A DNA stretch of 64,000 bases from Herbidospora daliensis. Lineage in GTDB: Bacteria > Actinomycetota > Actinomycetes > Streptosporangiales > Streptosporangiaceae. Location of the stretch: NCBI RefSeq assembly GCF_001570585.1, contig NZ_BBXF01000001.1, positions 1,233,691 through 1,297,690 on the forward strand. The letters are read 5' to 3'. A program made the translations under genes and the position numbers. A model generated the notes under the pieces. It made no database searches. It was given only the letters and a program-made list of their open reading frames with translations, and was not told the origin of the DNA. This document shows, one piece after another, positions 6,840 to 43,304 of this stretch. Numbering within the stretch: the first letter of the stretch is position 1; each line of letters starts with the position of its first letter.

Positions 6840-6955
6840 CCGGGAAAGGGTACGTGCACGCCGTCGAATCGGACAAAAGCGAGGAAAGCGGAAGAGCTAG
6901 CAGGCCCATGAGTTGAGAAGGAAGCGTCTTCCATGGCCTCGCGACCCCGACCGTA

Positions 6956-27814: not shown

Positions 27815-28767
27815 AGCTGCCCGCGGGGGCGCCGGGAGCCAAGGTGCTGGCCTTCGGCCACTACCAGCCGGCGAACGTGGTCACCAACGACGATCTCGCC
27901 AAGATGATCGAGACCAACGACGAGTGGATCCAGAGCCGGGTCGGCATCAAGGAGCGCCGGTTCGCCGGTCCCGAGGAGTCCGAGATCGACCTGGCCGTCC
28001 AGGCCGGTGGCAAGGCGCTGGCCGCGAGCGGCCTGTCGGCCGCCGACATCGACCTGGTGATCATCGCCACCTGCACCCCCGAGGCGCCGATCCCGAACCT
28101 GGCCGGGCGGGTCGCCCACCGGCTCGGCATCGAGGCGCCGGGCGCCTACGACCTCAACGCGGCCTGCGCGGGCTTCTGTTACGCCCTCGCCTCGGCCAGC
28201 GACGCGATCCGCGCGGGCTCGGCGAAGAACGTGCTGGTCGTCGGCACCGAGAAGCTCACCCAGTGGGTCGACATCAACGACCGCGCCACCTCGGTGATCT
28301 TCGCCGACGGGGCCGGCGCGGCGGTCGTCGTCCCCTCCGAGACCCCGGCCATCGGCCCGGTCGTCTGGGGCAGCGCGGGCGACAAGGCCGACGCCATCAT
28401 GATCGAGAACCGGTCGTCCTCCCTTCACCAGGAAGGTCAGACGGTGTTCCGCTGGGCCACCACGGCCCTTCACCCGGTGGCCAAGGAGGCTTGCGAGCGT
28501 GCGGGCGTGGCTCCCGCCGACCTGGCGGCGTTCGTGCCCCACCAGGCCAACCTGCGCATCATCGAGGCCATCGCGCGCAAGCTCGGCGCCGACAAGGCGG
28601 TCGTCGCGCGCGACATCGTGCTGGCCGGCAACACCTCGGCCGCGTCGATCCCGCTCGCGCTGTCCCGCATGATCGAGCAGGGCGAGGTGCCCTCGGGCGG
28701 CCTCGCGCTCCTCCTGGGCTTCGGGGCGGGCCTGACCTACGCCTCCCAGGTCATCGAGATCCCTTAA
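27811..28767 (+). CDS. fabH: Beta-ketoacyl-ACP synthase III
   Basis: 318 residues, GTG start overlapping the fabD stop (GTGA). Catalytic triad: Cys119 (NAACAGFCY), His244 (FVPHQANLRI), Asn274 (LAGNTSAASIP). WIQSRVGIKERRF near 39-51 and TPEAPIPNLAGRVAHRLG are typical. It condenses acyl-CoA with malonyl-ACP and so sets the starter unit (iso/anteiso branched in most actinomycetes). Length is normal for the family. Confidence 0.97.
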   Translation: MKLPAGAPGAKVLAFGHYQPANVVTNDDLAKMIETNDEWIQSRVGIKERRFAGPEESEIDLAVQAGGKALAASGLSAADIDLVIIATCTPEAPIPNLAGRVAHRLGIEAPGAYDLNAACAGFCYALASASDAIRAGSAKNVLVVGTEKLTQWVDINDRATSVIFADGAGAAVVVPSETPAIGPVVWGSAGDKADAIMIENRSSSLHQEGQTVFRWATTALHPVAKEACERAGVAPADLAAFVPHQANLRIIEAIARKLGADKAVVARDIVLAGNTSAASIPLALSRMIEQGEVPSGGLALLLGFGAGLTYASQVIEIP

Positions 28768-28770
28768 GTC

Positions 28771-28792
28771 TTGTACGGTCTTCGCCGTACGA
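28771..28792 (+). terminator. Small hairpin between fabH and acpP
   Basis: Arms 28771-28778 and 28785-28792 pair (GTACGG/CCGTAC plus a G-U and an A-U pair) around a 6-nt loop, starting 4 bp after the fabH stop. It may be a partial terminator, a processing site or an mRNA-stabilising structure that raises acpP relative to fabH. An AAAACCC follows, no T-tract. Confidence 0.4.
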
Positions 28793-28821
28793 AAACCCAG
28801 AAACACACTCAAAGGAGAGAA

Positions 28822-29061
28822 ATGGCAGCCACCGAGCAGGAGATCCTGGCAGGCCTCGGCAAGATCGTGAACGAGATCACCGGTATCCCCGCGTCCGAGG
28901 TGACTCCGGAGAAGAGCTTCGTCGACGACCTGGACATCGACTCGCTGTCGATGGTCGAGATCGCCGTGGCGGCCCAGGACGAGTTCGGCGCGGAGATCCC
29001 CGACGACCAGCTCAAGCACCTGAAGACCGTCAAGGACGTCATCAACTTCATCCAGAACTGA
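28822..29061 (+). CDS. acpP: Acyl carrier protein
   Basis: 79 residues, ATG preceded by a strong AAAGGAGAG. The phosphopantetheine attachment site is DIDSLSMVE with Ser41, in the classic four-helix ACP. The sequence is strongly acidic, as usual. It carries the growing acyl chain for FabD, FabH and FabF on either side. The strong ribosome binding site and the hairpin upstream suggest it is made in excess over its neighbours. Confidence 0.98.
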   Translation: MAATEQEILAGLGKIVNEITGIPASEVTPEKSFVDDLDIDSLSMVEIAVAAQDEFGAEIPDDQLKHLKTVKDVINFIQN

Positions 29062-29102
29062 GTACCCGCTCAACCGTTCGACCGTAGAGGAGTGCAGCCA
29101 AA

Positions 29103-30335
29103 GTGAGTACCAACCGGGTGCGAGTCGTCGTCACCGGACTCGGCACGACGACGCCCCTTGGTGGAGACGTCGCCTCGACCTGGGCGGCGCTCCTCGACGG
29201 GCGGTCGGGCATCCGCACGCTCACCGAAGACTGGGTCGACACCGTCCCGGCGAAGTTCGCCGGCGTCGCGGCCGTCGACCCCGGTGAGGTGCTGCCCCGC
29301 CCCGAGGCCAGGCGTCTCGACCGCTATGAGCAGTTCGCCCTGATCGCCGCCCGGCAGGCCTGGCAGGACGCCGGCGCGCCCGAGGTCGAGCCGACCCGGC
29401 TCGGCGTGGTCGTCGGCTCCGGCATCGGCGGCATCAGCACGATCCTGAACGCCTACGACACCTACCGCGAGAAGGGGTGGAACCGGCTCTCGCCGTACAC
29501 CGTCCCGATGCTCATGCCCAACGGCGCCGCGGGCTGGATCTCCATCGACCTGGGCGCCCAGGCGGGCACCCACGCGGCGGTCAGCGCCTGCGCGACCGGC
29601 GCCGAGTCGATCGGCCAGGCCATTGAGATGATCCGCTCCGGCCGCGCCGACGTCGTCGTCGCCGGCGGCAGCGAGGCGGCCATCCACCCGCTCAACATGG
29701 CCTCGTTCGCGGCCATGCGCGCCATGTCGACCCGCAACGACGAGCCCCACCGCGCTTCTCGCCCCTTCGACAAGGGCCGCGACGGGTTCGTGCTCGGCGA
29801 GGGCGCCGGCATCGTCGTGCTGGAGTCGGAGGCCCACGCGAAGGCGCGCGGCGCGCGGATCTACGCGGTCGCGGCCGGCGTCGGCATCACCTCCGACGGC
29901 CACCACATCTCCGCGCCCGAGCCGACCGGCATCGGCGGCAAGACCGCCATGCTGACGGCCATCGCCGACGCGGGCCTCAGCCCCGCCGACGTGCGCCACG
30001 TCAACGCCCACGCCACCTCGACGCCCGTCGGCGACGAGATCGAGGCGCGGGCGATCCGCGAGGCGCTCCCCGGCTCCCCGCTCGTCACCTCGACCAAGTC
30101 GATGACCGGTCACCTGCTGGGCGGCGCGGGCGGCATCGAGTCCGTCTTCACGATCCTGGCGCTGAGCGAGCGCATCGTGCCCGCCACCGCGAACCTCGAC
30201 GACCCGGCCGACGGCCTCGACGTGGACATCGTGCGCGGCGAGCCGCGCAAGCTCCCCGACGGGCAGCTCGCCGCGATCAACAACTCCTTCGGCTTCGGTG
30301 GGCACAACGTCGCCGTCGCCTTCACCACTGCTTGA
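29103..30335 (+). CDS. fabF: Beta-ketoacyl-ACP synthase II
   Basis: 410 residues, GTG start after GGAG. Catalytic set Cys163 (VSACATGAES), His303 (NAHATSTPVGD), Lys332 and His337 (TKSMTGHLLGGAG), with the final NNSFGFGGHN loop. It performs the elongating condensations of FAS-II. Coding sequence, length and order (after acpP) are standard. 22 bp separate it from the carboxyltransferase gene, so co-transcription is likely. Confidence 0.97.
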   Translation: MSTNRVRVVVTGLGTTTPLGGDVASTWAALLDGRSGIRTLTEDWVDTVPAKFAGVAAVDPGEVLPRPEARRLDRYEQFALIAARQAWQDAGAPEVEPTRLGVVVGSGIGGISTILNAYDTYREKGWNRLSPYTVPMLMPNGAAGWISIDLGAQAGTHAAVSACATGAESIGQAIEMIRSGRADVVVAGGSEAAIHPLNMASFAAMRAMSTRNDEPHRASRPFDKGRDGFVLGEGAGIVVLESEAHAKARGARIYAVAAGVGITSDGHHISAPEPTGIGGKTAMLTAIADAGLSPADVRHVNAHATSTPVGDEIEARAIREALPGSPLVTSTKSMTGHLLGGAGGIESVFTILALSERIVPATANLDDPADGLDVDIVRGEPRKLPDGQLAAINNSFGFGGHNVAVAFTTA

Positions 30336-30357
30336 TCAGCTGTCTGAGAGGGACGCA

Positions 30358-31782
30358 ATGACTGTCGTTGACAACAGGGTGGTGACCGCCTCCTCCGACC
30401 AGGAGGCTGCCGACCCCCGCGATCCCGTCGTCCGGCTGGGCCACCTGCTCGACGAGGGTTCCATGCGGCTCATCTCGCCGCAGGACAAGAGCGGGGCCCT
30501 GGCGGTCACCGGCCGCGTCGAGGGCGTCCCCGTCGTGGCGTTCTGCAGCGACGCCCGTTTCCAGGGCGGCGCGATGGGCTCCGAGGGCTGCGAGCACATC
30601 GTCCACGCCTACGACGTGGCGGTCCGCGAGCGGGTGCCGATCATCGGCGTCTGGCACTCGGGCGGCGCCCGCCTCGCCGAGGGCGTGGAGTCCCTCCACG
30701 CCGTGGGCCGCGTCTTCGCGGCCATGACGAAGGCGTCGGGCATCGTCCCGCAGATCTCCGTCGTGGTCGGCGCGGCGGCCGGCGGCGCGGCCTACGGCCC
30801 GGCGCTGACCGACATCGTGATCCTCGCCGACGAGGGCCGCATCTTCGTGACCGGCCCCGACGTCGTCCGCTCGGTGACGGGCGAGACGATCGACATGGCG
30901 TCGCTGGGCGGCCCCGAGCCCCACAGCAAGCGCAGCGGCGTGGTCCACATCGTCACCAAGTCGGAGCCCGAGGCCCTGCTGAAGGCCCGCCAGGTCGCCA
31001 CCCTGCTCGGCCACCAGGGCCGGGTCAGGCTGGGCGAGGTCGGCGAAGTCGACTTCTCCACCCTGCTCCCCGAGAACGTGCGCCGCGCCTACGACGTGAA
31101 GCCGCTGGTCAACGGCCTCCTCGACGAGCCCGGCGTGGAACTCCACCCCAAGTGGGCCCCCAACATCGTCACGACCCTGGGCCGCCTCGGCGGCCGCACG
31201 GTCGGCGTCATCGCCAACAACCCGATGCGCCTGGGCGGCTGCCTCGACTCGACCTCCGCGGAAAAGGCCGCCCGCTTCGTGCGCATGTGCGACGCGTTCG
31301 GCGTGCCCCTGGTGGTTTTGGTCGACGTCCCCGGCTACCTGCCGGGCGTCGGGCAGGAACACGACGGCGTCGTGCGCCGTGGCGCCAAGCTCCTCCACGC
31401 CTTCGCCGAGGCGTCGGTGCCGAGGGTGACACTGGTGACCCGCAAGTCCTACGGCGGGGCGTACATCGCGATGAACTCCCGCGCCCTCGGCGCGACCCGG
31501 GTCTTCGCGTGGCCGACGGCGCAGATCGCGGTCATGGGCGCCGTGGCGGCGGTCCGCATCCTGAAGCGCCGCGAACTCGCGGCGGTCCCGGACGAGGAGC
31601 GCGCCGAGCTGGAGACCCGCCTGGCCGAGGAGCACGAGAAGATCGCCGGCGGCCTCGACCGCGCGATCGACCTCGGCGTGGTCGACGAGGTCATCAAGCC
31701 GGAAGAGACCCGGGGAGCCATCGCAAAGGTGATCGCCCGTGCGACACCGGCGCGGGGGGCCCACGGGAACATCCCGCTCTAG
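30358..31782 (+). CDS. accD: Acyl-CoA carboxylase beta (carboxyltransferase) subunit, AccD6-like
   Basis: 474 residues, ATG after GAGAGGGACG. Both crotonase-like carboxyltransferase halves are present: N half with WHSGGARLAEGVESLHAVGR and GAAAGGAAYGPALTD; C half with GVIANNPMRLGG, VPGYLPGVGQEHDGVVRRGA and RKSYGGAYIAMNSRALGA. The length and place after fabF match M. tuberculosis AccD6 (fabD-acpM-kasA-kasB-accD6), which makes malonyl-CoA with AccA3 and AccE. A biotin-carboxylase alpha subunit is not in this window, so it must come from elsewhere. Role: malonyl-CoA (or methylmalonyl-CoA) supply to the same operon. Confidence 0.92.
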   Translation: MTVVDNRVVTASSDQEAADPRDPVVRLGHLLDEGSMRLISPQDKSGALAVTGRVEGVPVVAFCSDARFQGGAMGSEGCEHIVHAYDVAVRERVPIIGVWHSGGARLAEGVESLHAVGRVFAAMTKASGIVPQISVVVGAAAGGAAYGPALTDIVILADEGRIFVTGPDVVRSVTGETIDMASLGGPEPHSKRSGVVHIVTKSEPEALLKARQVATLLGHQGRVRLGEVGEVDFSTLLPENVRRAYDVKPLVNGLLDEPGVELHPKWAPNIVTTLGRLGGRTVGVIANNPMRLGGCLDSTSAEKAARFVRMCDAFGVPLVVLVDVPGYLPGVGQEHDGVVRRGAKLLHAFAEASVPRVTLVTRKSYGGAYIAMNSRALGATRVFAWPTAQIAVMGAVAAVRILKRRELAAVPDEERAELETRLAEEHEKIAGGLDRAIDLGVVDEVIKPEETRGAIAKVIARATPARGAHGNIPL

Positions 31783-31800
31783 TTCTTCCTGTACGACCTG

Positions 31801-31834
31801 AACGCCGCTTCCACCTGTTTGTGGGGGCGGCGTT
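31801..31834 (+). terminator. Terminator hairpin of the fab operon
   Basis: Arms AACGCCGC (31801-31808) and GCGGCGTT (31827-31834) enclose an inner stem CCAC/GTGG joined by two possible G-U pairs, giving about 14 bp with a 6-nt loop. It starts 18 bp past the accD stop. No clear T-tract. Confidence 0.75.
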
Positions 31835-31893
31835 TCGGCGTTGCGGGGGATTTGCCTGGCGTCCTTCTGCGCAGCGCACCTTGTATGACGGCT

Positions 31894-32126
31894 TTGGGAA
31901 GCGACCCTGCATGGCAACTCTTGGGAGCGACCCGGTGCAGCGGCCCTCCCGAGCGACCTTCTACGGCGACCCTCCCGAGCGGCCCGTACGGCGGCCCTCC
32001 CAAGCGGTCCTCTACGGCGGCTCTCCCGAGCGACCCTGTGCGGCGGTTCTCGGGGGCAAACCTTTATGGCGGTCCTCGAAGGCGAACCTTCTGGCAGCTC
32101 TCGGGGGCGATCGGCTGGCGGCGCAT
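31894..32126. repeat. Imperfect ~26-bp tandem array downstream of accD, ~9 units
   Basis: Units start at 31894, 31921, 31947, 31973, 31998, 32024, 32050, 32076 and 32101, with lengths of 25-27 bp. The best-conserved part is TCCCGAGCGACC followed by T(A/G)CGGCGG. Later units drift to TCGGGGGCG, so the array is older or less homogenised than the one at 51-417. It is non-coding on available evidence: indels of 1 bp break any frame. The block CTCCCGAG..CGACC is shared with the first array. Confidence 0.85.
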
Positions 32127-33061
32127 TTGGTCGGGCGGCTAACGCCGCCCGAAATTTCGGCATATCGACCTCAGTGAGGGCTCCTTGCGGGATGCGCCCG
32201 ATCGAGTAGAGGACCTCTCCGACCTACCCACCACCACAATGACGCGGCCACTGATCGACCCATAAAAGACCGCCTCGGGGTCCGGGGACAGGAGTGGGGC
32301 CGTTGCCCGCTATGCACTTTTGAGGGACATTCGCCCGTGCTGGCAGAGGTGACGAAAGAGTGAGCGTCCAATCACCTGAGCCCACAGCCGGGCAGCCACA
32401 ATCGGACACTCGCCTGGACCTAAACGATTCCACTACGCGAGAGAAGTCCGAAACCGACGGAACCCAAGACCCCCGGAAATGTTGTGCCGAAGCACGCGAC
32501 ACCATCGCCTCCAAGTGCCCGATGTGGCGCACAAGCCGCGCATCGCCAGAGCCCACGGCCCGGGCAACGTGGCCCTGCCGCTGGGCCTGAGCGGCGGCCG
32601 AGCACACCAGAGAGCGGTGTCGTGCGAGGCGGTGGCTGCTTACGCCGGCCTCGGCCAGCGTGGGATGGAAGACCCCCACACCTGACTCGGATACCTCGCC
32701 CATGGGACGGCGGCAAGGCAGTGGCCGGTTGACGCCGTTAAGGGCGGTGACCGCGTTAGGCGCTACTGACCAGGCAGCGCGGCAAGCAGGCGGATCTCAC
32801 AGGGCTTGGCTCTTCAGCGCGTGGCCGAGAATCGTCACCCATTGAACTAACCCCTCCTGGCAGCGTCTTGAAGCGACCGTCCACCACAGACCATCGCAAA
32901 CGCGCACTTGGGAGGTAGCAGGAAGAACGGCGGCGCGATCTCCAGGCCAACACGTCAGACGTCAGCCGCGAGGGAGGTTGTGGCCGGGTAAGGCGGCCCC
33001 GGCCCAGGAGCGTGGTGAAGTACGGCAGGGCGCGCAGGCAGGTGCCCCGCGCCCCCTACAG
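32127..33061. other. ~0.9 kb without a recognisable gene
   Basis: Open frames of 60-160 codons occur on both strands, but none combines a ribosome binding site, high third-position GC and a known domain. A GTG frame at 32360-32590 (starting SVQSPEPTAGQPQSDTRLDL) is the most plausible small gene, but its C-terminus looks random. Base composition is less GC-rich than neighbouring genes (for example 32400-32520), consistent with decayed or acquired DNA. A weak hairpin at 33028-33054 (7-bp arms) may end the DUF3145 transcript. Confidence 0.5.
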
Positions 33062-33559
33062 CTAGACGGCCGCGTGGAGCCAGCGCACCGGAGCGCCCTC
33101 GCCGGCGTACCGGAAGGACTCCAGTTCCTCGTCCCACTGCTTGCCGAGCAGCTTGTCGAGTTCGTCCTCCAGGACCACGCGCCCCTGGCTGGCCATCAGC
33201 ATGACGTTCCGGAGGCGGTCCTCCGAGATCAGGATGTCGCCGTTCACGCCGATGGTCGCCGTGAAAGCGCCCAAAGCGGGGGTGTACGCATGGCGGGAGC
33301 CGTCGCTGCCCGGCGACGGGTCTTCGGTGATTTCGAACCGGATGCGCTGCCACCCCATGAGCGAAGAGGTGATCTTGGCGGCGACGCCGGCGGGCCCCTC
33401 CCATTCGGCCTGGGCGCGCAGGGCGCCGGGCGCAGCGGGCTGGGGCGTCCACGTCAGGTCGACGGGTACGCCAAGAATGCCTGCGACGGCCCACTCGATG
33501 TGTGGGCACAGCGCAGGCTGAGCCGAGTGGACGTACAGGACGCCACGAGCAGCAGCCAC
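33062..33559 (-). CDS. DUF3145 family protein
   Basis: 165 residues, GTG start. The sequence matches the highly conserved actinobacterial DUF3145: RGVLYVHSAQPALCPHIEWA, VAGILGVPVDLTWTPQPAAP, EITEDPSPGSDGSRHAYTPA, and GDILISEDRLRNVMLMA. It is often encoded beside the fab operon (SCO2386-2391 region in S. coelicolor), and here it follows 1.3 kb downstream on the opposite strand. The function has not been established; strong conservation suggests a housekeeping or developmental role. Confidence 0.93.
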   Translation of the reverse strand: MAAARGVLYVHSAQPALCPHIEWAVAGILGVPVDLTWTPQPAAPGALRAQAEWEGPAGVAAKITSSLMGWQRIRFEITEDPSPGSDGSRHAYTPALGAFTATIGVNGDILISEDRLRNVMLMASQGRVVLEDELDKLLGKQWDEELESFRYAGEGAPVRWLHAAV

Positions 33560-33869
33560 CGGACCTCCCGATTCGTACGAGGTGCGCCTTCCCCAACGGC
33601 CTCATACTGGGATGATCACAAGTGACTCTAGGAGAGACTACCGTCCGTCGCGGCGGGGCACCAGAGGAGGGTCATACCGATTCCCCCTTGGCCGCCGAAC
33701 GAATCGGTCTCTCCTGAAGGCGTAAAACGGCGCGATCGTGGAAGTTGGGCGTCCTTCCGGAATTCCGCGATCTCACCGGGCCGCGCCGGACACCACGGCT
33801 AGAGTTGCTCACGCAACGCTCCTCTGTCAGCACAGTCGGTGAGGCTGGTGCGGAAAGGGTCAGTGACGC
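33560..33869. promoter_or_regulatory. Divergent intergenic region before the sigma/CHAT module
   Basis: 310 bp between DUF3145 and the sigma gene. It holds an 8-bp inverted repeat ACCGATTC/GAATCGGT (33676-33683 and 33701-33708) and a small hairpin GTTGC-TCAC-GCAAC at 33804-33817, about 55 bp before the sigma start. Promoters for both directions must lie here. No gene is seen. Repeats could be operators for the module, but nothing identifies the binding protein. Confidence 0.45.
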
Positions 33870-34427
33870 GTGCTTTTCGAGGTTCACGACGAATCGATCC
33901 CTCTCGATCTGCTCGACGACCACGCCTGGTCCGAGTTGGTCGCCTGCTTCAACGGTCAGATGTGGGCCGTGGCGCGGGCGGCGGGTCTGGGGGCGGCCGA
34001 CGCGTCCGACGCCGTACAGGGAGCGTGGCTCCGGCTGGTCGAGAGCGTCGACCGCATCCGCGACCCGCGCGCGGTCGGCGCGTGGCTGATGACGACGACG
34101 CGGCGCGAGGCGCTGCGGCTCGGCCGCAAGGCCGGCCAGGAGTTCCCGGCCGACCCGCCCGACCTCTACGAACATCCCACGCTCGCCGCGCCCGACCCGA
34201 CGACGGAGATCGTCGACGCCGACTACGGGCGCACCCTGTGGTCACGCGTGTCCCGGCTCAGCGAGCCGTGCCGGACCATGCTCCGGCTCTTCGCCCTCAA
34301 TCCTGATGTACGGTACGCGCAGGTCGCGGCCCGCATGCACATCCCGGTCGGCAGCGTGGGCCCGACCCGGTCGCGGTGCTCGGCCAAGCTCCGGACCCTG
34401 CTCGCGGAGGACCCCCTTGAGTGCTGA
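33870..34427 (+). CDS. Sigma-70-family (ECF-like) RNA polymerase sigma factor
   Basis: 185 residues, GTG start after AAAGGG. Region 2 (about 15-85): WSELVACFNGQMWAVARAAG, ASDAVQGAWLRLVESVDRI, PRAVGAWLMTTTRREALRLG. Region 4 (about 128-180): RLSEPCRTMLRLFALNPDVR, YAQVAARMHIPVGSVGPTRS, RCSAKLRTLL. The HTH holds GSVGPTRSRC, the usual DNA-reading helix. The next gene begins inside its 3' end. No classical anti-sigma (ZAS or membrane) gene is adjacent; instead a beta-sandwich protein and a CHAT protease follow. Target promoters unknown. Confidence 0.92.
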   Translation: MLFEVHDESIPLDLLDDHAWSELVACFNGQMWAVARAAGLGAADASDAVQGAWLRLVESVDRIRDPRAVGAWLMTTTRREALRLGRKAGQEFPADPPDLYEHPTLAAPDPTTEIVDADYGRTLWSRVSRLSEPCRTMLRLFALNPDVRYAQVAARMHIPVGSVGPTRSRCSAKLRTLLAEDPLEC

Positions 34428-34878
34428 CGACGCGGCGCTGGAGACGTACATGCTGGCGGCGATGCGCCTGGCCGCCCAGGCCGACCCCGCTCCCGGCCGC
34501 CTGGCCGCCGACGCGATGGCCGCACTCGCGATGCGCCTGCCCGGCTGCGTCGTTGCGACCCCCGCCGACCTGACGGCCGCCTCCGGCGCACGAGCAGGCG
34601 GAAAGCCCCAGATGCACCGCTTCGAGGCCGACGACACGACCCTCGACGTCGAGACGACCATCACCGAGGGTCGCCTGGAGATCGCCGGCCAGGTGAGCCC
34701 GCCCCCCGCCCCCGATGCGTATGTCGAGGTCCGCACCCCGCACGTGACGAAGGTCCGGGTACCCTCGGCCGACGGCCAGTTCGCCGTGGCGGGCCTCCCG
34801 CCCGGCTGGGTGAGCGTGGCCTACCACCGCCCGAGCGATCCCCCGGTGGTCACCCGCTGGCTGCGTGTCCGCGCCTGA
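34417..34878 (+). CDS. Small protein with carboxypeptidase-regulatory-like beta-sandwich
   Basis: 153 residues. A TTG start at 34417 was chosen because GGAGG lies 6 bp upstream (34406-34410), and the frame then begins SADDAALETYMLAAMRLAAQ; it overlaps the sigma stop by 11 bp. The N-terminal half is helical. Residues about 75-150 are beta-rich: TTITEGRLEIAGQVSPPPAP, AYVEVRTPHVTKVRVPSADG, FAVAGLPPGWVSVAYHRPSD, like a CarboxypepD_reg Ig-like domain. No signal peptide or membrane helix. Sitting between sigma factor and protease, it could be an anti-sigma-like adaptor or the protease substrate; this is inference. Confidence 0.75.
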   Translation: MSADDAALETYMLAAMRLAAQADPAPGRLAADAMAALAMRLPGCVVATPADLTAASGARAGGKPQMHRFEADDTTLDVETTITEGRLEIAGQVSPPPAPDAYVEVRTPHVTKVRVPSADGQFAVAGLPPGWVSVAYHRPSDPPVVTRWLRVRA

Positions 34879-37078
34879 GTCCTACGGCCCGTTCGCCGCG
34901 GCCCGGCGCGCCGACATCCTGGCGGCGTTCGACGTCCATCTGGCAGCAGAGGATTGCCTGTACGAGTCCCCGGAGCGGTTGGCCCTCACCCGCGCCGAGT
35001 TCGCCTCGGCCTTGGTCGGAGCCCGCCTACCGGGCGAGGCCCGCATGCTCCTGGAACTCGCGCTGCCCGATCTGACCTCGGCCCGCCCGGCGACCGCCCA
35101 CGCCCGGCTGCTGCTGGCGACGGTGGAACTGCTGACGGGGGATGTCCGGCGGGCCGAGGACACGGCTGCGACGGCGCTGACGGAGTTCGGGCGTCTGGGA
35201 CGGGCGGTGTGGGAACCGAGGGCCCGGGACGTGCTGCTGCGGGCGCGGCTCACGCAGACGGCCGAGAACAGGGCCGAGGAGAGGCTGCCGCCGGGACGGA
35301 CAACTCAATCGGCCGAGACCGATGGCGGATTGCCAGCAAGGCAGCCGACTCGGAGTGCCGAGATCGCGCTCAAGCTGGGAGCGCCCTCGAAGCTGTCGGA
35401 GGAGCAAGGCGAGTTCGGACTCGATGACGGACTGCTCTGTGACTGTGCGGCTGGGGCCGATGGGCTGGAGGCTGCGGGCTGGCGGTCTGAGGCCGACGAG
35501 CTGCGGCTGTTCGCGGTGTCGGCGTTCGTGCGCCGGTGCGGTCGTGGGGTCGGCGGGCTGGTGGTGGCGCAGCTGATGCTGGACCGGGTCCGGGACGGGT
35601 CGGGTTGTGCTGCCACGCGGTTGCATGCGGAGGCGTTGCGGCGATGGGTGGGCGGCGATCTCACCGAGGCGCTCGAACTGACCCGGCTGGGGTTCGCCGA
35701 GTCGCTCCGCGAGATGTCGCGGCTGGCTTCGGACACCGTGTCGAAGGAGCCGAGTGATTGGCACAGCTCTGAGTCGAGACCGTCTGACTCGATGCCTCAG
35801 CTGACCAATCGCCATCGTGACACGACAGTTGGAGACGTCGACCCTGGCGCGATTCCCGACTCAGGGAAGTTCATCAGGACATCGGATGACACCTCCGGCT
35901 CGACGGCAGCTAACGGACCTATGGGGAGGCACGCCACAACGCCATCCCCCCTCCCGGAGCCGGGCACAGGCATCCGCACAGGGACGTCGACGTTGGGTGC
36001 CGTGCCTCACGTGAAGCGGCTCGCCGATGAGCGTTGGCGGGTCTCCCGGGTGGCCGAGGAGATCGCCACGCTCGGCCTGGAGTTGGCCATCAGGCAGCAG
36101 AGCCCCGACAAGGTGCTGCTCTGGTCGGAGCGGTGGCGGGCGCTCGTCAGCGGTGCGGAGCCGGTGGCCGATCGGCCCGAGGTGCTCGTCCAGCTGGTAC
36201 GCGACCAAGACGCCCTCCACGCCGTAGTCGCCCACGGCGACCAGCTCTCACTCCACGGCCTCGGGTCACTGTCGTCCGTCACCGAGGCGATGGTGCGAAT
36301 CCGCTACAACCTCCGCAGAAGGAACCTCCGCGACACCAGGCCGGAAGGCGAGGAAGGGTTGTCCCCCGGCCTCCTGCGAGAACTGTCCGCCCTCGACGAG
36401 GCGCTGATCCGGCCGCTCGACCTGCCGCAGGGAGCCGTCAGCGTGGTCCCCACGGTCGCGCTGCACTCGTTGCCCTGGTCACTGCTGCCGTCGCTGCGCG
36501 GGCGAGCCGTCTCGGTCGCGCCCTCGGCCGCGCTGGCCGTCACCCGCAGGGAGATCGGCGGGCCGGTGGTGGCGCTCGCGGGGCCCGACTTGGCCCATGC
36601 GGAGGAGGAGGTGACGGCGGTTGTGGGCGTACATGAGAAGGGAGAGCGGGTGCCCGCCACACGCGCCGCACTTCTGGAGGCTCTCGGGCGGGCGGGCATC
36701 GTGCACATCGCCGCGCATGGCATCTTCTCCGGGCGGCGGCCGATGATGTCGAGCATTCTCCTGGACGACGGTCCGCTCCTCGTACACGAGTTCTTCCGCC
36801 TGACGCGGGTACCGCCCCTGGTGGTGCTCTCCTCGTGCGACGCCGGCATGGCCTCGGCTCCCGCCGACGGCGCGGCGTTCGGCCTGGCCGGAGCCTTCCT
36901 CGACCGCGGGGCACGTACGGTGATCGCGGGCATCGTGCCGGTCCGCGACGACGAGGCGGCCCGGCTGATGGTGGAGTTCCACCGCCGACTGGCCAAAGGG
37001 CAGTCACCAGCGCAAGCCCTCGCCGACGCGGCCGTGGCCACCGACGTACCGGGATTCGCCTGCTTCGGAACTGGTTGA
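34865..37078 (+). CDS. CHAT-domain caspase-like protease
   Basis: 737 residues, GTG start overlapping the previous gene by 14 bp. Residues 1-135 and 200-290 are helical, TPR-like (ALTRAEFASALVGARLPGEA, ARLLLATVELLTGDVRRAED). Residues about 135-185 and 290-385 are low-complexity, Ser/Thr/Pro-rich linkers of lower GC. The C-terminal CHAT domain (about 430-737) carries the caspase dyad His618 (VHIAAHGIF) and Cys658 (VVLSSCDAG). CHAT proteases in bacteria cleave partners on activation (for example TPR-CHAT with type III-E CRISPR, and gasdermin-linked proteases). Here it is coupled to a sigma factor, suggesting proteolytic control of transcription. Confidence 0.9.
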   Translation: MSAPESYGPFAAARRADILAAFDVHLAAEDCLYESPERLALTRAEFASALVGARLPGEARMLLELALPDLTSARPATAHARLLLATVELLTGDVRRAEDTAATALTEFGRLGRAVWEPRARDVLLRARLTQTAENRAEERLPPGRTTQSAETDGGLPARQPTRSAEIALKLGAPSKLSEEQGEFGLDDGLLCDCAAGADGLEAAGWRSEADELRLFAVSAFVRRCGRGVGGLVVAQLMLDRVRDGSGCAATRLHAEALRRWVGGDLTEALELTRLGFAESLREMSRLASDTVSKEPSDWHSSESRPSDSMPQLTNRHRDTTVGDVDPGAIPDSGKFIRTSDDTSGSTAANGPMGRHATTPSPLPEPGTGIRTGTSTLGAVPHVKRLADERWRVSRVAEEIATLGLELAIRQQSPDKVLLWSERWRALVSGAEPVADRPEVLVQLVRDQDALHAVVAHGDQLSLHGLGSLSSVTEAMVRIRYNLRRRNLRDTRPEGEEGLSPGLLRELSALDEALIRPLDLPQGAVSVVPTVALHSLPWSLLPSLRGRAVSVAPSAALAVTRREIGGPVVALAGPDLAHAEEEVTAVVGVHEKGERVPATRAALLEALGRAGIVHIAAHGIFSGRRPMMSSILLDDGPLLVHEFFRLTRVPPLVVLSSCDAGMASAPADGAAFGLAGAFLDRGARTVIAGIVPVRDDEAARLMVEFHRRLAKGQSPAQALADAAVATDVPGFACFGTG

Positions 37079-37119
37079 GCCCGGAACGACCGCAGCATTC
37101 GGAGGATCTGGCGCGGCGT

Positions 37120-38106
37120 TCAGTTTCCTGGGCCGGGAAGCTCCAGCTCCGCGAAGACGGCCTTGTGGTCGGTGTTCGGGAGGGTGTGAACCGAGAAGGC
37201 GTGGATCGCCGTCCGGCTATCAGCCAGGACATGGTCGATCGTCACCGACGGAATGGGCAGCCCGTAGAAGTCGCGCGGAAGGGCCGGCCACGTCGTCTGC
37301 AAGCCGTTCCCCGTCACCTCGGCCGCGTCCCGATACCCGGCGTCGAGCAACGCCCGCACCCGGGCATGGTCGAGCGTCGCGTTGAAGTCGCCGATCAGAA
37401 GCCGGGCCGCCCCGCCAGTCTGGGAAAGAGCGTCAAGCCCCTCCCCCCAACACGCATGAAGGCGGGCGACATACGGAGCACACGGATGAACGGAAACCAT
37501 CTCCACCGCCACCCCCTCCACGTCAAGCCGCCCGACGAGCTGCCCGAACCCCCCGAAGTCATGTAACCCCACCCGCTCAACCGGGAAGCGCGAGTAGATC
37601 CCCGACCCCCGCGTCCCCCGCCGGGCCTCCGTCACCCGGTTGGGCAGCAGGGCGTCAAGGCCAGCCCGCTCCATCGCCTCCACCGCGTCAGGGCTGAGCT
37701 CCTGGAAGGCCACCACGTCAGCCCGCACCGACCGGACCAGCCGTACGACCTCCTCCGCCGGCGCCCCGCCCGCCAGCAGGTTCACCGCCAGCACCCGCAG
37801 CCGCGGCCCGCCCCCGCCCGACGGGCTCTCGCCGACCATCCGGGGCACCACGAGAGCCGCGAAGACCAGGCAGACCGCCAGTGCCGCTCCCCCGGCCACC
37901 CACCGGCGCGCCAGCAGGGCGAGTAACAAAGCCACCGGCGACGACAACGCAACGTAAGGCGTGAACGCCACCAGCTGCACCCACCAGAACCCCACGTCAC
38001 CGGGCACGAGACGCAGCAAGACCCAGGCCGCGTACAGAAGAACGATCAGCCAGATCAGCCGGGTGGTCAGGCTCGTGCCACCGGGCGACTCGGGTCGGTG
38101 ATCCAT
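37120..38106 (-). CDS. Membrane endonuclease/exonuclease/phosphatase-family protein
   Basis: 328 residues. Start ATG 38106; an ATG three codons upstream (38115) is also possible, and either overlaps the sulfurtransferase stop (38067) by 40-49 bp. Three N-terminal membrane helices (about 14-100): LIWLIVLLYAAWVLLRLVP, VALLLALLARRWVAGG, ALAVCLVFAALVVP. EEP domain 105-325: VLAVNLLAGGAPAEEV, VVAFQELSPDAVEAM, MVSVHPCAPY, LLIGDFNATLDH, SVTIDHVLAD, PNTDHKAVFAEL. All metal and general-base motifs are intact. Likely an outward-facing phosphodiesterase on lipids or nucleic acid. Last gene of a four-gene minus-strand cluster. Confidence 0.88.
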   Translation of the reverse strand: MDHRPESPGGTSLTTRLIWLIVLLYAAWVLLRLVPGDVGFWWVQLVAFTPYVALSSPVALLLALLARRWVAGGAALAVCLVFAALVVPRMVGESPSGGGGPRLRVLAVNLLAGGAPAEEVVRLVRSVRADVVAFQELSPDAVEAMERAGLDALLPNRVTEARRGTRGSGIYSRFPVERVGLHDFGGFGQLVGRLDVEGVAVEMVSVHPCAPYVARLHACWGEGLDALSQTGGAARLLIGDFNATLDHARVRALLDAGYRDAAEVTGNGLQTTWPALPRDFYGLPIPSVTIDHVLADSRTAIHAFSVHTLPNTDHKAVFAELELPGPGN

Positions 38107-38873
38107 TCGGACCATGATCCGGCATACAGGGACGCGGTGATGCCCGCCGACGCCAGGGCCAGCACCTCGTGGGCCGCCGTCACGCCGCTGCCGCAGTAGG
38201 CGCCCACCGGCACGCCCTCGACCACACCCAGGGTGTTGAAGCGTTCGCGCAGGAACTCGGGGCGGTGGAAGCGGCCGCCGGGTTCCAGGTTGTCGGTCGT
38301 GGGGGCGTTCACCGCGCCGGGGATGTGGCCGGCGACGGGGTCGACCGGTTCGACCTCGCCGCGGTAGCGCTCGGGGGCGCGGGCGTCGAGGAGGACGCCG
38401 TCGTCGGCCAGGATCGCGGCCTGGTCGGCGGTGATCAGCGGCAGGCCGCCGGGGCGGGCGGTGAAGTCGCCCACGGTCACGTCGGGGGTGTCCTTGGACA
38501 GCTCGCCCGTCCAGGCGCGCAGGCCGCCGTCGAGCACGCGGACGTCGCGGTGCCCGAAGTAGCGCAGGCACCACCACGCGCGGGCGGCGGCCAGGGCGTT
38601 CCAGTCGTCGTACACGACGACCGGACGGCTGTCGGAGACGCCGAGCTCGCGCATCGCGGCTTCGAAGGCGGCGGCTGAGGGCAGCGGGTGGCGGCCGCCC
38701 GTGCCCGCGGGGGCGGCGAGGGCCGTGTCGAGGTCGCAGTAGACCGCGCCGGGGATGTGGCCGAGGGCGTATTCGGCCGGGCCGGGCGGGCCGCCGAGGC
38801 GCCAGCGCACGTCGAGGACGGTCACCTCGCCGAGCGAGTCGGCGAGGTCGGCGGCGGTGATCAGTGGGCTCAT
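38067..38873 (-). CDS. Sulfurtransferase (two rhodanese domains)
   Basis: 268 residues, ATG overlapping the upstream stop by 4 bp. An inactive N-terminal rhodanese domain (VTVLDVRWRLGGPPG, YALGHIPGAVYCDLDT) is followed by a catalytic one (GVLLDARAPERYRGE, GHIPGAVNAPTTDN, GAYCGSGVTA) with active-site Cys227. CGSGVTA is typical of 3-mercaptopyruvate/thiosulfate sulfurtransferases. It transfers sulfane sulfur to cyanide or thiol acceptors. The overlap with genes on both sides indicates co-transcription with AlkP and EEP genes. Confidence 0.94.
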   Translation of the reverse strand: MSPLITAADLADSLGEVTVLDVRWRLGGPPGPAEYALGHIPGAVYCDLDTALAAPAGTGGRHPLPSAAAFEAAMRELGVSDSRPVVVYDDWNALAAARAWWCLRYFGHRDVRVLDGGLRAWTGELSKDTPDVTVGDFTARPGGLPLITADQAAILADDGVLLDARAPERYRGEVEPVDPVAGHIPGAVNAPTTDNLEPGGRFHRPEFLRERFNTLGVVEGVPVGAYCGSGVTAAHEVLALASAGITASLYAGSWSEWITDPSRPVARA

Positions 38874-39955
38874 CGGCGGATCTCCAGGAAGGGCACGTTC
38901 TGTTCGGCGGGGGTGAGCGACCCGTGGTAGCCGGTCATCGACCACTCCAGCGGATCTTCCCCGGACGACGCGATCACAAGCTCGCCCTCGGCCACGGCGA
39001 CGACGTCGCCGACCCGGCCCAGCAGGGCGGGGTCGACGGGGCCGAACCAGCCCGAGTCGACGGCCTCCTCGCGGGTGGCGATCCGGGCCCGGTCGCCGAG
39101 CACCGAGCGCCACGTCTGGAGGACCGCGCCGGACGCGCCGGGGGCCGTGTAGAGGTGGCGGAGCCGGGCCTCGCCGCCGACGAGGGCGACGCCCTCGGTG
39201 AGCTCGGGGTGGAGGTCGAGGTCGACCTTGTCGGTGGCGTTGATCATGCCGTGGTCGGCGGTGACGTAGAGGACCCCGCCGGGCGGCAGGGTGGCGGCGA
39301 GGCGTTCGGCCAGGCCGTCGACGATCGACAGCTGGTCGAGCCACTCGGGCGAGCCCCAGCCGGTCATGTGGCCCATGGCGTCGAGTTCGCCGTAATAGCA
39401 GGTCACGTAGGCTCTGCGGGTCGCGCGCAGGGCGGCGTGGACACCGGCGACCCGTTCGTCGAGGGTGTCGGCGGGGACGTAGCGCACGCCCCGGTAGACC
39501 GCCGAGGTGAGGCCGGTGCCGTCGAAGGCGGCGGGCGCGACGTAGGAGCAGGCGACGTCATGACTGGCCAGCCGCTGGAACACGGTGTCGACGGGCTGCC
39601 AGGTGAGCGGGTCGACGCGGGGGCCGTCGCTGGTCCAGCGCAGGCAGTCGAGCAGGCGGTTCTCGCCGGGCACCGCGACGGTGATGCCGAGCATGCCGTG
39701 GTTGCCCGACATGACGCCGGTCCCGATGGTGGCCAGGCTGGTCGGGGTGGACGACGGCAGGCCCGCCGTGAGCACCCGCGAGAGCGCCGACGACAGGAAC
39801 GGCGCGCGGGACGGGTGGGCGGCGAGCAGGTCGGCGCCCATGCCGTCGACGATGAACAGGCACACCTTCTCGGCCGGGTCGAGCCCCAGCGTGCCGCCGC
39901 CGGTTCCGTCGAAGGTGGCGTGGACGGAACCGGCGATGTCGGCGAGGGTGGCCAT
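38870..39955 (-). CDS. AlkP-superfamily nucleotide pyrophosphatase/phosphodiesterase
   Basis: 361 residues, ATG joined to the upstream stop (TGATG). Metal motifs of the NPP group: VCLFIVDGMGADLL, SSTPTSLATIGTG with the nucleophilic Thr, VTCYYGELDAMGHMTGWGSP, and LYVTADHGMINATDK, plus a late TGYHGSLTP His. There is no signal peptide, so it should act in the cytoplasm, unlike many secreted NPPs. Substrate unknown (nucleotide or phospholipid diesters). Sits between DUF5998 and sulfurtransferase in an overlapping set. Confidence 0.9.
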   Translation of the reverse strand: MATLADIAGSVHATFDGTGGGTLGLDPAEKVCLFIVDGMGADLLAAHPSRAPFLSSALSRVLTAGLPSSTPTSLATIGTGVMSGNHGMLGITVAVPGENRLLDCLRWTSDGPRVDPLTWQPVDTVFQRLASHDVACSYVAPAAFDGTGLTSAVYRGVRYVPADTLDERVAGVHAALRATRRAYVTCYYGELDAMGHMTGWGSPEWLDQLSIVDGLAERLAATLPPGGVLYVTADHGMINATDKVDLDLHPELTEGVALVGGEARLRHLYTAPGASGAVLQTWRSVLGDRARIATREEAVDSGWFGPVDPALLGRVGDVVAVAEGELVIASSGEDPLEWSMTGYHGSLTPAEQNVPFLEIRR

Positions 39956-40539
39956 CACGTGCGCGCCGTCGCCTCCGACAGGGCGCGGGCGAAGGCCAGG
40001 ACGTGGCGCACGGCCTCGGGGCCGTCGGCGGCCTCGCTGACGCGGAGCTGGAGGTCGTCGGCGGTGATCGAGCCGGTGTAGCCGTGGTCGGCTTCGCAGT
40101 TCTCGTCGCCGCAGGTGGCGGGTTCGAGGTCGACGTGGGAGATGGCCCCCCAGCCGATGGTGAGCGTGACCTCGCTGGGCGCGACGCCGGGCGAGTAGGA
40201 CGCCGGGTCGGGGACCAGCCGGGTGAGCGCGACCGACTGGACCCGGCTCAGCCGGACCGCCTCGGTGGTCGTGGACGCATGAGAGGCGGGGTTTCCCTCG
40301 GCGGGCGGATGTTCGTCGGTGTGGCAGACGAGCAACCGGGTGGGCGACAGCACCAGGACCGTGACGTGCCGGCGGACTTCCATGGCCGGGTCGAACGTGG
40401 CCTCGTGGTGGACGACGTAGGCGCTGACGCTCTCCTTGCCCAGGGCGGAATCGACGGCGTCGGCGACCAGGTCGGGGTAGTAGCCACTTCGGTCGATGGC
40501 CTCGCGCAGACCTGCAGCCGAGACTCGGGTATCCCTCAT
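39955..40539 (-). CDS. DUF5998 family protein
   Basis: 194 residues from the ATG at 40539 (MRDTRVSAAGLREAIDRSGY). Matches the actinobacterial DUF5998 protein: YYPDLVADAVDSALGKESVS, AYVVHHEATFDPAMEVRRHV, LVLSPTRLLVCHTDEHPPAE, ATCGDENCEADHGYTGSI. The Cys pair in TCGDENC may bind a metal. First gene of the overlapping four-gene minus-strand unit. Function unknown; conserved linkage with the AlkP-like gene suggests a shared pathway. Confidence 0.9.
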   Translation of the reverse strand: MRDTRVSAAGLREAIDRSGYYPDLVADAVDSALGKESVSAYVVHHEATFDPAMEVRRHVTVLVLSPTRLLVCHTDEHPPAEGNPASHASTTTEAVRLSRVQSVALTRLVPDPASYSPGVAPSEVTLTIGWGAISHVDLEPATCGDENCEADHGYTGSITADDLQLRVSEAADGPEAVRHVLAFARALSEATART

Positions 40540-40582
40540 GGGACCATCCTGCCCTGTCGACCACCCACATTTCACCGGGCAG

Positions 40583-43174
40583 TCAGGATGGGAGCCGCCT
40601 CGGGCCGACGTCCGGCCGGGGCCCGGTGACGGCCTTCAGCACCGCACGGGCGCCCAGCACCTGGACGCCGTTCTCACCCACCAAGACGGGGTCGAGCCGC
40701 AACGCCGCGACCTGCGGATGCGCGTCGGCCAGCCGCCCGATCCGGCACAGCAGCTCCTCCAGTTCGGCCACCGCCACGGGCGGGTAGCCGTGCGCGCCGA
40801 ACAGCAGCGGCGCGGCCTTGGGGGCCCGGACCAGCCCGGCGGCGTCTTCAGCCGTGAGCGGAGCGAGCCGGTAGGCGTCGTCGCCGAGCAGCCGGGCGGC
40901 GATCTCGCCCAGTCCGAACGACACCACGGCCCCGAAGTCCCGGTCCTGCACCGAGGTGATCACGGTCGGCACCGCGGGCTGCGGGGCCATGCGCTGGACC
41001 GCCAGCCGCGGCCCGGCGACCCCTGCCAGGTCCGTGTACGCCCGCGCGACCGCCGCCGCGTCGGGCAGCGCCAGGCGGACCGTCCCGGCGCGACCGGTGC
41101 CGTCCCACTTGACCACCACGGGAAAACCCAGCCGCTCGGCCGCCGCGACCGCCTCCTCGGGCGAGCCCACCGTCTCCGAGGGCCAGACCTCGACGCCGTA
41201 GGTCCGCAGCAGGGCGGCGGCGTCGATCTCGACCGGCTCCTCGGCCGCCCCCTGGACGATCTCCCGGGCGGCGACCACGTCGACGCCGCCCAGTTCGGGG
41301 ATGCTGCCCTCGTCGCCGCGGCGCCACTGCGCATGGCGTACCGCCAGAGCAAGGGCCCTGACCGCCTCCTCGGGCGCCGGATACGACGGGATCGAACCCC
41401 GTGCGGGACCCTCTCCGGGCGCGCGCAGCGCGGCCGGGACCCCGGCCTCGCCCCGGAAGGTGGCCAGCACCGGCTTGCCGCTCTCCCCCGCGACCCGCAC
41501 CAGTTCGGCGGCGACCTCGGCGTCGGGGCCGGGCACCGGCGGCATGTAGACGACCACGGCGGCGTCGACGTCGGGGAGGACCGAGGCGAGCGCCGCGCCG
41601 AACTCGGCGGCCCCGGCGCGGGCGCCCAGATCGGCGGTCGAGGGCGCGAGGCCCGCGCTGACGCAGGCGTGGGCGGCCAGCCGGGCCAGGGCGTCGGAGT
41701 TGCTGACGATGCCGACGCGCGGCCCCTCGGGCAGGGGCTGGCAGGCGAGCAGCTGGGCGACGTCGAACAGCTGGGTGAGGTCGTCGACGCGGATCACCCC
41801 GGCCTGCTCGAACAGGGTCGACACGGCGTCGTCGGGCAGCCCGAACTCGGCGGCCTGCGACTTGACCGCCACGATCGGCTTGGTGCGGGAGATGCGCCGG
41901 GCCAGCCGGGTGAACTTGCGCGGGTTGCCCATCGACTCCAGATAGAGGAGGACGACCTCGGTCGCCGGGTCCTCCTCCCAGTACTGGAGGAGGTCGTTGC
42001 CGGACACGTCGGCCCGGTTCCCGGCCGAGACGAAGGTGGAGATGCCGAGCCCGCGCTGGTCGACGCGGTGCAGCAGGGCGGTGCCGAGCGCGCCCGACTG
42101 GCTGAAGAAGCCGATGCGGCCGCGCGCGGGCAGCCGCCCGGCGAGGGTGGCGTTGAGCTTGATCGACCGGTCGGTGTTGGCGATGCCGAGGCAGTTGGGC
42201 CCGACGACCCGCATGCCGTAGGCGCGGGAGATCCGCACCAGCTCCTGCTCGCGCGCCAGCCCCTCCTCGCCCGTCTCGGCGAACCCGCTGGAGACCACGA
42301 CCAGCCCCTTCACGCCCTTCCGCGCGCACTCCTCGACGACGTCGAGCACGCTCTCGGCCGGCACGGCCACCACCGCCAGGTCGACCTCGCCGTCGATCGC
42401 GGCCATGTTCTTGTACGCCCGCACGCCCGCGACCGCCCGCACCTCTCGGTGCACCGGGTAGACCGGCCCGGTGAACTCGGCCCGCAGCAGGTTGCGCAGC
42501 ACGGTCTGGCCGATCCCGCCCGGCTCCCGGCTGGCCCCGATGACGGCGACCGACTCGGGCTTGAGCAGCCGGGCGATCGACCGCGCCTCGGCGCGGTGTT
42601 CGCGCCCGGTCACGACCTCGACCGAGTCGGGGGTGCTGGCGAGGTCGAGGGTCATCCTGACCACGCCGTCCTCGAACGTGCTCTGCGCGGTGTACCCGGC
42701 CTGCCGGAACATCTGGGTCATGCGGTGGTTGGCGGGCAGCACGTCGGCGATGAAGGTCCGGATGCCGCGTTCCCTGGCGGCGGCCCGCAGGTGTTCGAGC
42801 AGCACCGCCGCGAGCCCGCGCCCCTGGTGGGCGTCCTCGACCAGGAAGGCCACCTCGGCGTGGTCGGCGGGCTTGACCCGGTCGTAACGGACCACCGCCA
42901 CCATCTCGGTTCCGATGGTCGCGATCAGGGCCAGCCGGTCGTTGTAGTCGACCGTCGTGAAGCGCGTCACCTCCCGGTCCGAGAGGCGCGGACGGGGCCC
43001 GAAGAAACGGAAGTAGATCGATTGGGCGGAGAGACGGGAGTAGAAGGAACGCAGGAGTTCGGCGTCATCGGGGCGGATGGGCCGCAGGTGAGCGGTGCCG
43101 CCGTCGGAGAGGACGACGTCGGCCGCCCAGTGCGGCGGATGCGCGGGTTCCACCTTTCGAGGGTATCTGTGCAC
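40583..43174 (-). CDS. GNAT-NDP-forming acyl-CoA synthetase fusion, Pat-type protein lysine acetyltransferase
   Basis: 863 residues from a GTG at 43174; an ATG nine codons upstream (43201) is possible. N-terminal GNAT domain at about 15-165 (LVEDAHQGRGLAAVLLEHLR acetyl-CoA loop). It is followed by CoA-binding (about 195-320, VAVIGASREPGGIGQTVLRN), succinyl-CoA-ligase-like flavodoxin domains (GIVSNSDALARLAAHA) and an ATP-grasp-like end (GFPVVVKWDGTGRAGTVRLA). The GNAT-first order matches actinobacterial type II Pat enzymes (such as S. lividans SlPatA), the reverse of E. coli Pat. They acetylate acyl-CoA synthetases; the ligase half is usually regulatory. Confidence 0.88.
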   Translation of the reverse strand: MHRYPRKVEPAHPPHWAADVVLSDGGTAHLRPIRPDDAELLRSFYSRLSAQSIYFRFFGPRPRLSDREVTRFTTVDYNDRLALIATIGTEMVAVVRYDRVKPADHAEVAFLVEDAHQGRGLAAVLLEHLRAAARERGIRTFIADVLPANHRMTQMFRQAGYTAQSTFEDGVVRMTLDLASTPDSVEVVTGREHRAEARSIARLLKPESVAVIGASREPGGIGQTVLRNLLRAEFTGPVYPVHREVRAVAGVRAYKNMAAIDGEVDLAVVAVPAESVLDVVEECARKGVKGLVVVSSGFAETGEEGLAREQELVRISRAYGMRVVGPNCLGIANTDRSIKLNATLAGRLPARGRIGFFSQSGALGTALLHRVDQRGLGISTFVSAGNRADVSGNDLLQYWEEDPATEVVLLYLESMGNPRKFTRLARRISRTKPIVAVKSQAAEFGLPDDAVSTLFEQAGVIRVDDLTQLFDVAQLLACQPLPEGPRVGIVSNSDALARLAAHACVSAGLAPSTADLGARAGAAEFGAALASVLPDVDAAVVVYMPPVPGPDAEVAAELVRVAGESGKPVLATFRGEAGVPAALRAPGEGPARGSIPSYPAPEEAVRALALAVRHAQWRRGDEGSIPELGGVDVVAAREIVQGAAEEPVEIDAAALLRTYGVEVWPSETVGSPEEAVAAAERLGFPVVVKWDGTGRAGTVRLALPDAAAVARAYTDLAGVAGPRLAVQRMAPQPAVPTVITSVQDRDFGAVVSFGLGEIAARLLGDDAYRLAPLTAEDAAGLVRAPKAAPLLFGAHGYPPVAVAELEELLCRIGRLADAHPQVAALRLDPVLVGENGVQVLGARAVLKAVTGPRPDVGPRRLPS

Positions 43175-43304
43175 AAACGCGGTGGTTGGGCAACGGATCC
43201 GCATCGACTGTGTACGAGTGTCCGCCTCACCCCCCACGAAGCTTGCAGAAGCTGTTAAGTTTCCGGGGTCAGCGTCGATTTGCAGTAAGCAAGGTGGTGA
43301 CATC

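Follow-up and report, generated by a model that had tools for sequence, protein, structure and literature searches.

A conserved sigma factor, small protein, and CHAT protease module in Herbidospora daliensis and its possible role as a proteolytic switch

Described sigma factor-protease systems and the Herbidospora locus

Passages in two papers on type III-E CRISPR (clustered regularly interspaced short palindromic repeats) systems describe a CHAT protease that cuts Csx30, a protein that binds and inhibits a sigma factor resembling those of the extracytoplasmic function (ECF) type (PMC10028731, PMC9729208). In the RseA/DegS pathway, as outlined in parts of two papers (PMC10028731, PMC8103513), a protease likewise destroys a sigma factor inhibitor. 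For the sigma factor family ECF54, a section of a 2022 review gives the gene neighborhood as carboxypeptidase, subtilase, and CHAT and suggests that control is by proteolysis rather than by an anti-sigma factor (PMC8999054). Here, we analyzed a stretch of 64,000 nucleotides from the actinomycete Herbidospora daliensis (the window; contig NZ_BBXF01000001.1, positions 1,233,691 to 1,297,690, forward strand), in which three overlapping genes encode an ECF-type sigma factor (S), a small protein (M), and a CHAT (caspase-like) protease (C). Our best reading of the sequences is that M is a reduced anti-sigma factor, with arginine 59 (R59) of M as the proposed position at which CHAT would cut it.

As the earlier note on this DNA had claimed, the genes overlap by 11 and 14 bp. 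All three lie on the forward strand: S at window positions 33870 to 34427 (185 amino acids, GTG start), M at 34417 to 34878 (153 amino acids, TTG start), and C at 34865 to 37078 (737 amino acids, GTG start). The assignment of S to the ECF sigma factors also held. S scored 50.8 bits against TIGR02937 (cut-off 42.9) and 37.8 against Pfam Sigma70_r2 (cut-off 24), above the cut-off in both cases, with a weak region 4 (13.5, below the cut-off of 25.7). A sequence search of solved structures matched S to known ECF sigma factors. For C, the same search returned nothing (E value up to 1), and for M its matches did not rise above chance (best E value, 0.14). Residues 506 to 724 of C matched the Pfam CHAT domain at 114.9 bits (cut-off 24). 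The catalytic residues H618 (codon at 36716 to 36718, forward strand) and C658 (codon at 36836 to 36838, forward strand) were both invariant across the 156 CHAT domains aligned, 136 from loci with M and 20 from loci without M; three short matches were excluded from this alignment. C had been described as a TPR-like CHAT protease with an intact dyad, of which the CHAT domain and the dyad were recovered, but no TPR model matched C at an E value of ≤1. Strong TPR matches were found in one Acidobacteriota homologue (L048). Among S, M, and C, no fusions were seen in the frames examined.

The single Pfam match of the window's M, to CarboxypepD_reg, was weak (E value 0.038, below the cut-off); this family was matched at an E value of ≤0.01 by 5 of 42 M proteins (best, 1.7e-5). 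It is a fair guess from these weak profile matches that M adopts an immunoglobulin-like, or beta-sandwich, fold. No NCBIfam model was matched by any of the 42 M proteins, a difference from the type III-E CRISPR system.

In outline, the locus resembles the type III-E CASP/Craspase system (Csx29, a TPR-CHAT protease; Csx30; and CASP-sigma), in that a CHAT protease, a putative sigma-binding protein, and an ECF-like sigma factor are encoded together. However, the match to the Csx29 model NF041237 reached 10.9 bits against a cut-off of 300, and, in agreement with the earlier description of the locus as lacking CRISPR, positions 28000 to 44000 contained no CRISPR-like array, with one two-copy direct repeat of 22 nucleotides as the only repeat found. 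Because no Csx29 match exceeded the cut-off and no array was present, the module is not a member of this system. The likeness to RseA/DegS extends to the proposed destruction of a sigma factor inhibitor by a protease. In contrast to RseA, which is a membrane protein, none of the three window proteins contains a strongly hydrophobic stretch, and we therefore take S, M, and C to be soluble. DegS, moreover, is not a caspase-like protease.

The suspicion that the module might be known but uncharacterized proved right, since the ECF54 section of the review names such a neighborhood (PMC8999054). S is likened to ECF54 by its gene neighborhood, as a sigma factor gene in a CHAT, "carboxypeptidase," and subtilase context. 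A CHAT gene is present in the window, whereas a subtilase profile found no match there; a subtilase was found at 50 of 80 loci collected through M (below). Set against that section's account, the present module differs in two ways: members of the M family from another phylum have an anti-sigma-like domain, and an arginine in the linker of M is nearly invariant.

Conservation of the module and kinship of M with anti-sigma factors

The nearest named relatives of C were found at six Herbidospora loci (66 to 87% identical in the best segment), and all six held S, M, and C. A profile search of 296 genomes of the class detected M in 102 of them, in 51 of 114 genera, at 114 places (five further rows, three of them second pieces and two weak, are omitted from this count). 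From these, 80 M-seeded loci were drawn, leaving out places already collected and near-duplicates of large genera. S lay directly upstream of M at 78 of the 80 and CHAT within about 6 kb at 59; with the subtilase included, all members occurred together at 44, some loci being cut by contig ends. S and M stood without CHAT or subtilase at 16. Seeding with CHAT instead (54 places, the stronger matches from 60 genomes including the window's own, besides the window's orthologues; two places are from the window's own genome) gave S at 39 and M at 49. Because the module is complete in six Herbidospora loci and its genes stay associated throughout the sampled class, it is more than a chance arrangement, and these counts show the sigma factor, small protein, and CHAT module pointed out in the earlier note to be real and conserved.

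Presence of the two genes was also compared genome by genome. With CHAT counted at an E value of ≤1e-18, a cut-off chosen after the gap had been seen, 99 of the 296 genomes had both M and CHAT, 3 had M only, 1 had CHAT only, and 193 had neither; at an E value of 1e-3, the corresponding numbers were 101, 1, 19, and 175. Related genomes are not independent, and these counts are given without weight on a P value. In 12 genomes whose M locus showed no CHAT in the fetched DNA, a search for CHAT gave a match elsewhere in 11, about 8 kb from M in one (G146) and far off or on another contig in the remaining ones; two genomes searched alongside (G276 and G133) had CHAT near M. The window's genome has nine CHAT matches, three of them at loci with M; the other six domains lie in four regions, none with S, M, or subtilase. 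In two loci (L053 and L290), a CHAT gene and a sigma factor gene, respectively, each appeared to be split over two reading frames.

Evidence on the role of M came from Acidobacteriota, in which the protein encoded between or beside S and CHAT consists of an N-terminal zinc-finger anti-sigma-like domain followed by an M-type domain. The earlier statement that the sigma factor lacks a normal anti-sigma factor was therefore too simple. Pfam zf-HC2 exceeded its cut-off in three of the first five Acidobacteriota M proteins, and the H, C, and C positions were invariant in these five. Across the larger set, the H-x3/4-C-x2-C motif of class I zinc anti-sigma factors was present in 22 of 25 proteins and absent from those of L285, L286, and L296. 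The genomic association recurs in this phylum as well: of 20 M-seeded loci, several of them cut by contig ends, 13 had both S and CHAT, 15 had S, 16 had CHAT, and 2 had neither. The acidobacterial M profile found matches in 20 of 119 sampled genomes of the phylum, many of them weak or to the zinc domain only.

When the actinobacterial and acidobacterial M profiles were aligned with each other, the match covered 132 columns (probability, 96; E value, 1.5e-9) and started near the end of the zinc domain, so that the acidobacterial part after this domain aligned with nearly the whole actinobacterial M. The window's M thus corresponds to the acidobacterial protein minus most of its zinc domain. Two modules of the Acidobacteriota sample (L285 and L286) likewise have an M without the zinc motif, and the motif may therefore have been lost more than once. 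In known anti-sigma factors, the helix that follows the zinc core contacts the sigma factor, and the window's M may keep this helix. We infer that M without the zinc domain would still bind S, and a reduced anti-sigma factor is our best reading of M.

The close co-occurrence of M and CHAT across genomes would also fit a different role, in which M works with CHAT or activates it, offering it a ligand or substrate, and S does no more than transcribe the operon. At a Herbidospora paralogue, M does accompany a subtilase and CHAT, the gene before M being the subtilase and not S. Nevertheless, M stays with S in several genomes in which CHAT lies elsewhere, and the anti-sigma-like domain of the Acidobacteriota M proteins also speaks against such a role, which we consider unlikely.

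Alternatively, the proteases may act on the sigma factor itself, with CHAT, possibly together with the subtilase, degrading S and keeping it low in the absence of any anti-sigma factor. Proteolysis of the sigma factor is what the review section states for ECF54 (PMC8999054), and the CHAT and subtilase context fits such a model. However, it leaves M, the tightest partner of S (78 of 80 loci), without a role, and the zinc domain in the Acidobacteriota relatives of M speaks for an inhibitor; we judge degradation of S to be quite unlikely. In addition, what the review calls a "carboxypeptidase" may be M itself, by way of its CarboxypepD_reg-like domain (a weak match, below the cut-off). A domain of this kind is not a peptidase.

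A candidate cleavage site and the proposed switch

The alignment of M offers a candidate position for a cut by CHAT. A total of 162 M frames were found, dereplicated to 147, and aligned. The arginine at position 59 of the window's M (codon at 34591 to 34593, forward strand) was present in 146 of the 147 proteins. The linker around it varies in length, placing the arginine mostly 11 to 16 residues from one conserved position and 8 to 13 from the next; another spacer in M is similarly variable. Among the 146 proteins, the arginine was followed by G, S, or A in 121 and preceded by V, A, or L in 117, with G two positions before in 73. When linkers were shuffled and realigned in five trials, no residue was aligned in more than 36 of 147 proteins, compared with 146 of 147 for the real arginine. 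Because it is invariant within a variable linker and has a small residue next to it, R59 is a candidate cut site, and cutting of M at R59 by CHAT is the best reading of this pattern.

In the mechanism we propose, M would bind S and keep it inactive. C would sense a signal, probably via the region ahead of its CHAT domain, whereupon CHAT would cut M after R59, between a sigma-binding N terminus and a beta-sandwich-like C terminus, and the freed S would direct RNA polymerase. The subtilase, encoded at the same locus in many relatives, may complete the breakdown of M or pass the signal on. The operons of many relatives, though not that of the window locus, start with a shared promoter-like motif (below), and for that reason S probably amplifies its own module there. 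This scheme builds on the genes and their association, the anti-sigma-like domain in relatives, the near-invariant arginine, and the intact dyad, and we give the full mechanism an even chance of being correct. A broader version is more tentative, and we regard it as rather doubtful: a CRISPR-free, self-amplifying caspase switch common to Actinomycetes and Acidobacteriota, with an arginine-preferring CHAT, a soluble anti-sigma factor that it would cut at the single near-invariant arginine, and a freed S that chiefly transcribes the protease module. Such a switch might look like the free-standing system out of which the Craspase arrangement was put together.

Several observations weigh against this mechanism. 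With respect to R59, one M protein (L066) is without the arginine, the full context G-[VAL]-R-[GSA] occurs in only 45 of 146 proteins, and the invariant arginine could serve binding instead of cleavage. A comparison of 136 CHAT domains from M loci with 20 from other loci revealed no acidic residue special to the former that would account for a preference for arginine, the conserved acids of M-locus CHATs being common to CHATs at loci without M. Csx30, according to a part of its description, is cut after L407 and not after an arginine (PMC9729208). With respect to kinship, H-x3/4-C-x2-C is absent from the window's M and from 121 of 122 actinobacterial M frames, zf-HC2 remained below its cut-off in L052, L053, and L277, and L285 matched no Pfam family at an E value of ≤0.01. 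With respect to the association, M was without S at 2 of the 80 loci, both with a subtilase, and one genome (G126) had M and no CHAT match. The linkage of CHAT to a sigma factor gene in relatives, on which the earlier note had staked its proposal, was seen at 39 of the 54 CHAT-seeded loci; more distant CHAT loci (L046 to L062) had S in only 7 of 17 and M in 6 of 17, within the DNA collected. Finally, CHAT-seeded loci were the source of the M profile, and the two seedings are therefore not fully independent.

Two features of the N-terminal part of C were also observed. The region of about residues 130 to 390, ahead of the CHAT domain, differs in length among Herbidospora loci, where the matched spans of C cover ~694 to 805 codons; it is perhaps a sensor region that evolves fast. 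Residues 77 to 140 matched the SigE-family sigma factor model TIGR02983 weakly (E value 0.0025, far below the cut-off), probably by chance.

Subtilase genes, promoter-like motifs, and genomic setting

In relatives, the subtilase, which the earlier note did not mention, is often a fourth member of the module. Its gene frequently stands just before S, and at some loci it lies on the far side of M or on the opposite strand; it encodes a Peptidase_S8 protein in the two cases examined. The Acidobacteriota subtilase has a prodomain match and the Herbidospora one does not, and the two may therefore not be the same gene. A second Herbidospora locus consists of subtilase, M, and a divergent CHAT gene, with no S found there. 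On other contigs of the window's genome, L088 carries subtilase and M genes and a divergent CHAT gene, with no sigma factor gene found, and L097 carries subtilase, sigma factor, and M genes and a divergent CHAT gene. Both loci have the TGTATCA motif described below, and one sigma factor may thus serve both. Elsewhere in the window, a second sigma factor-like open frame lies at 5934 to 6896 on the reverse strand (107 bits to the iterated profile of the module's sigma factor), with neither M nor CHAT matched next to it.

Promoter-like sequences were sought upstream of these operons. GGAAC-type ECF promoters were found upstream of S in 0 of 99 regions for the two patterns tried (compared to 4 and 3 in one shuffle), and the first enriched word pairs upstream of S turned out to be the end of a subtilase gene. 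GTATC-N15-17-GCTC preceded the subtilase or S in many operons, with 70 matches in 142 loci versus 17 in one shuffle. In the 8.5 Mb of the window's genome, the stricter TGTATCA-N14-16-GCTC had two sites, before the subtilase genes of the two other M loci. A motif of this sister-operon type was absent from the window, and the window locus probably uses another promoter. In 292 genomes of the class (a sample that lacks G329, one of the 102 M genomes), TGTATCA-N15-GCTC had 141 matches, of which 35, in 27 M genomes, were ≤10 kb from an M place; ~0.3 would be expected if sites were spread roughly evenly over genomes of 6 Mb. Within M genomes, the motif was near M at 35 of 75 places. This enrichment is partly built in, because the motif was derived from such loci. 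Of the 106 places not near M, which may be chance or unrelated, 66 were in genomes without M. The distribution fits a small regulon centered on the module. Extra motif copies lie beside modules in other genomes (L297 and L305). The genes that follow them, one membrane-protein-like and one resembling a LuxR-type ATPase (names assigned by eye), are possible further targets. By eye, several related operons also have sequences resembling housekeeping promoters.

At the window locus itself, the region upstream of S (33800 to 33869, forward strand) contains a TAGAGT hexamer and the inverted repeat GTTGC-TCAC-GCAAC. These elements are kept in seven Herbidospora-type loci, which is weak evidence because the whole 300-bp stretch is 92% identical among them; the inverted repeat occurred in 1 of 99 upstream regions.

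The neighbors of the module bear on whether it serves in defense. Recurring at the 80 M-seeded loci were genes for DUF3145 (20) and, with names assigned by eye, for alkaline-phosphatase-like (24), DUF5998-like (28), and GNAT/acyl-CoA-synthetase-like (20) proteins. The gene directly after the module (37120) was found at 0 of these 80 and 0 of the 54 CHAT-seeded loci. The recurring neighbors point to a long-established chromosomal locus and not to a mobile defense island. A defense or self-killing device, in which freed S would amplify proteases that damage the cell or an invader, would have precedents and some fitting features: the CRISPR-linked CHAT protease is part of a defense system (PMC10028731), BovA of the Borvo system in PADLOC matches C over 81 residues (E value 2.2e-10), and the TGTATCA motif is rare in genomes and close to M at nearly half of its places in M genomes. 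The BovA match, however, is confined to residues 630 to 710, part of the CHAT domain, is not full-length, and has no other support, and some neighbors shared with relatives look housekeeping-like, unlike those of a mobile defense island. We therefore hold a defensive role to be improbable. That S, M, and C are co-transcribed neighbors with unrelated roles is extremely improbable, since they remain associated in the sampled class and, with other gene orders, in Acidobacteriota.

We return to a module in which CHAT may relieve the inhibition of S by M. The earlier note had envisaged a stand-alone proteolytic switch of transcription, perhaps responding to stress or phage. A conserved module without a CRISPR-like array is indeed present and a switch is its best reading; the phage role found no support, the housekeeping-type neighbors common to the window locus and its relatives weakening that role without excluding it. 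Beyond the ECF54 statement, the literature searched contained no account of S, M, and CHAT as a triad and none that gives M an anti-sigma role. A neighborhood resembling this one is already on record in the review, and a likely inhibitor with a likely cutting site is what the present analysis adds.

To our knowledge, the substrate has been identified for few of the caspase-like proteases of bacteria. If M is such a substrate, its single conserved arginine allows a direct test. The M family is present in about a third of the sampled actinomycete genomes (102 of 296). If the proposed mechanism is true, M would supply a regulator for a sigma factor module that has been described as lacking an anti-sigma factor, and the module would be a CRISPR-free counterpart to the sigma factor branch of Craspase.

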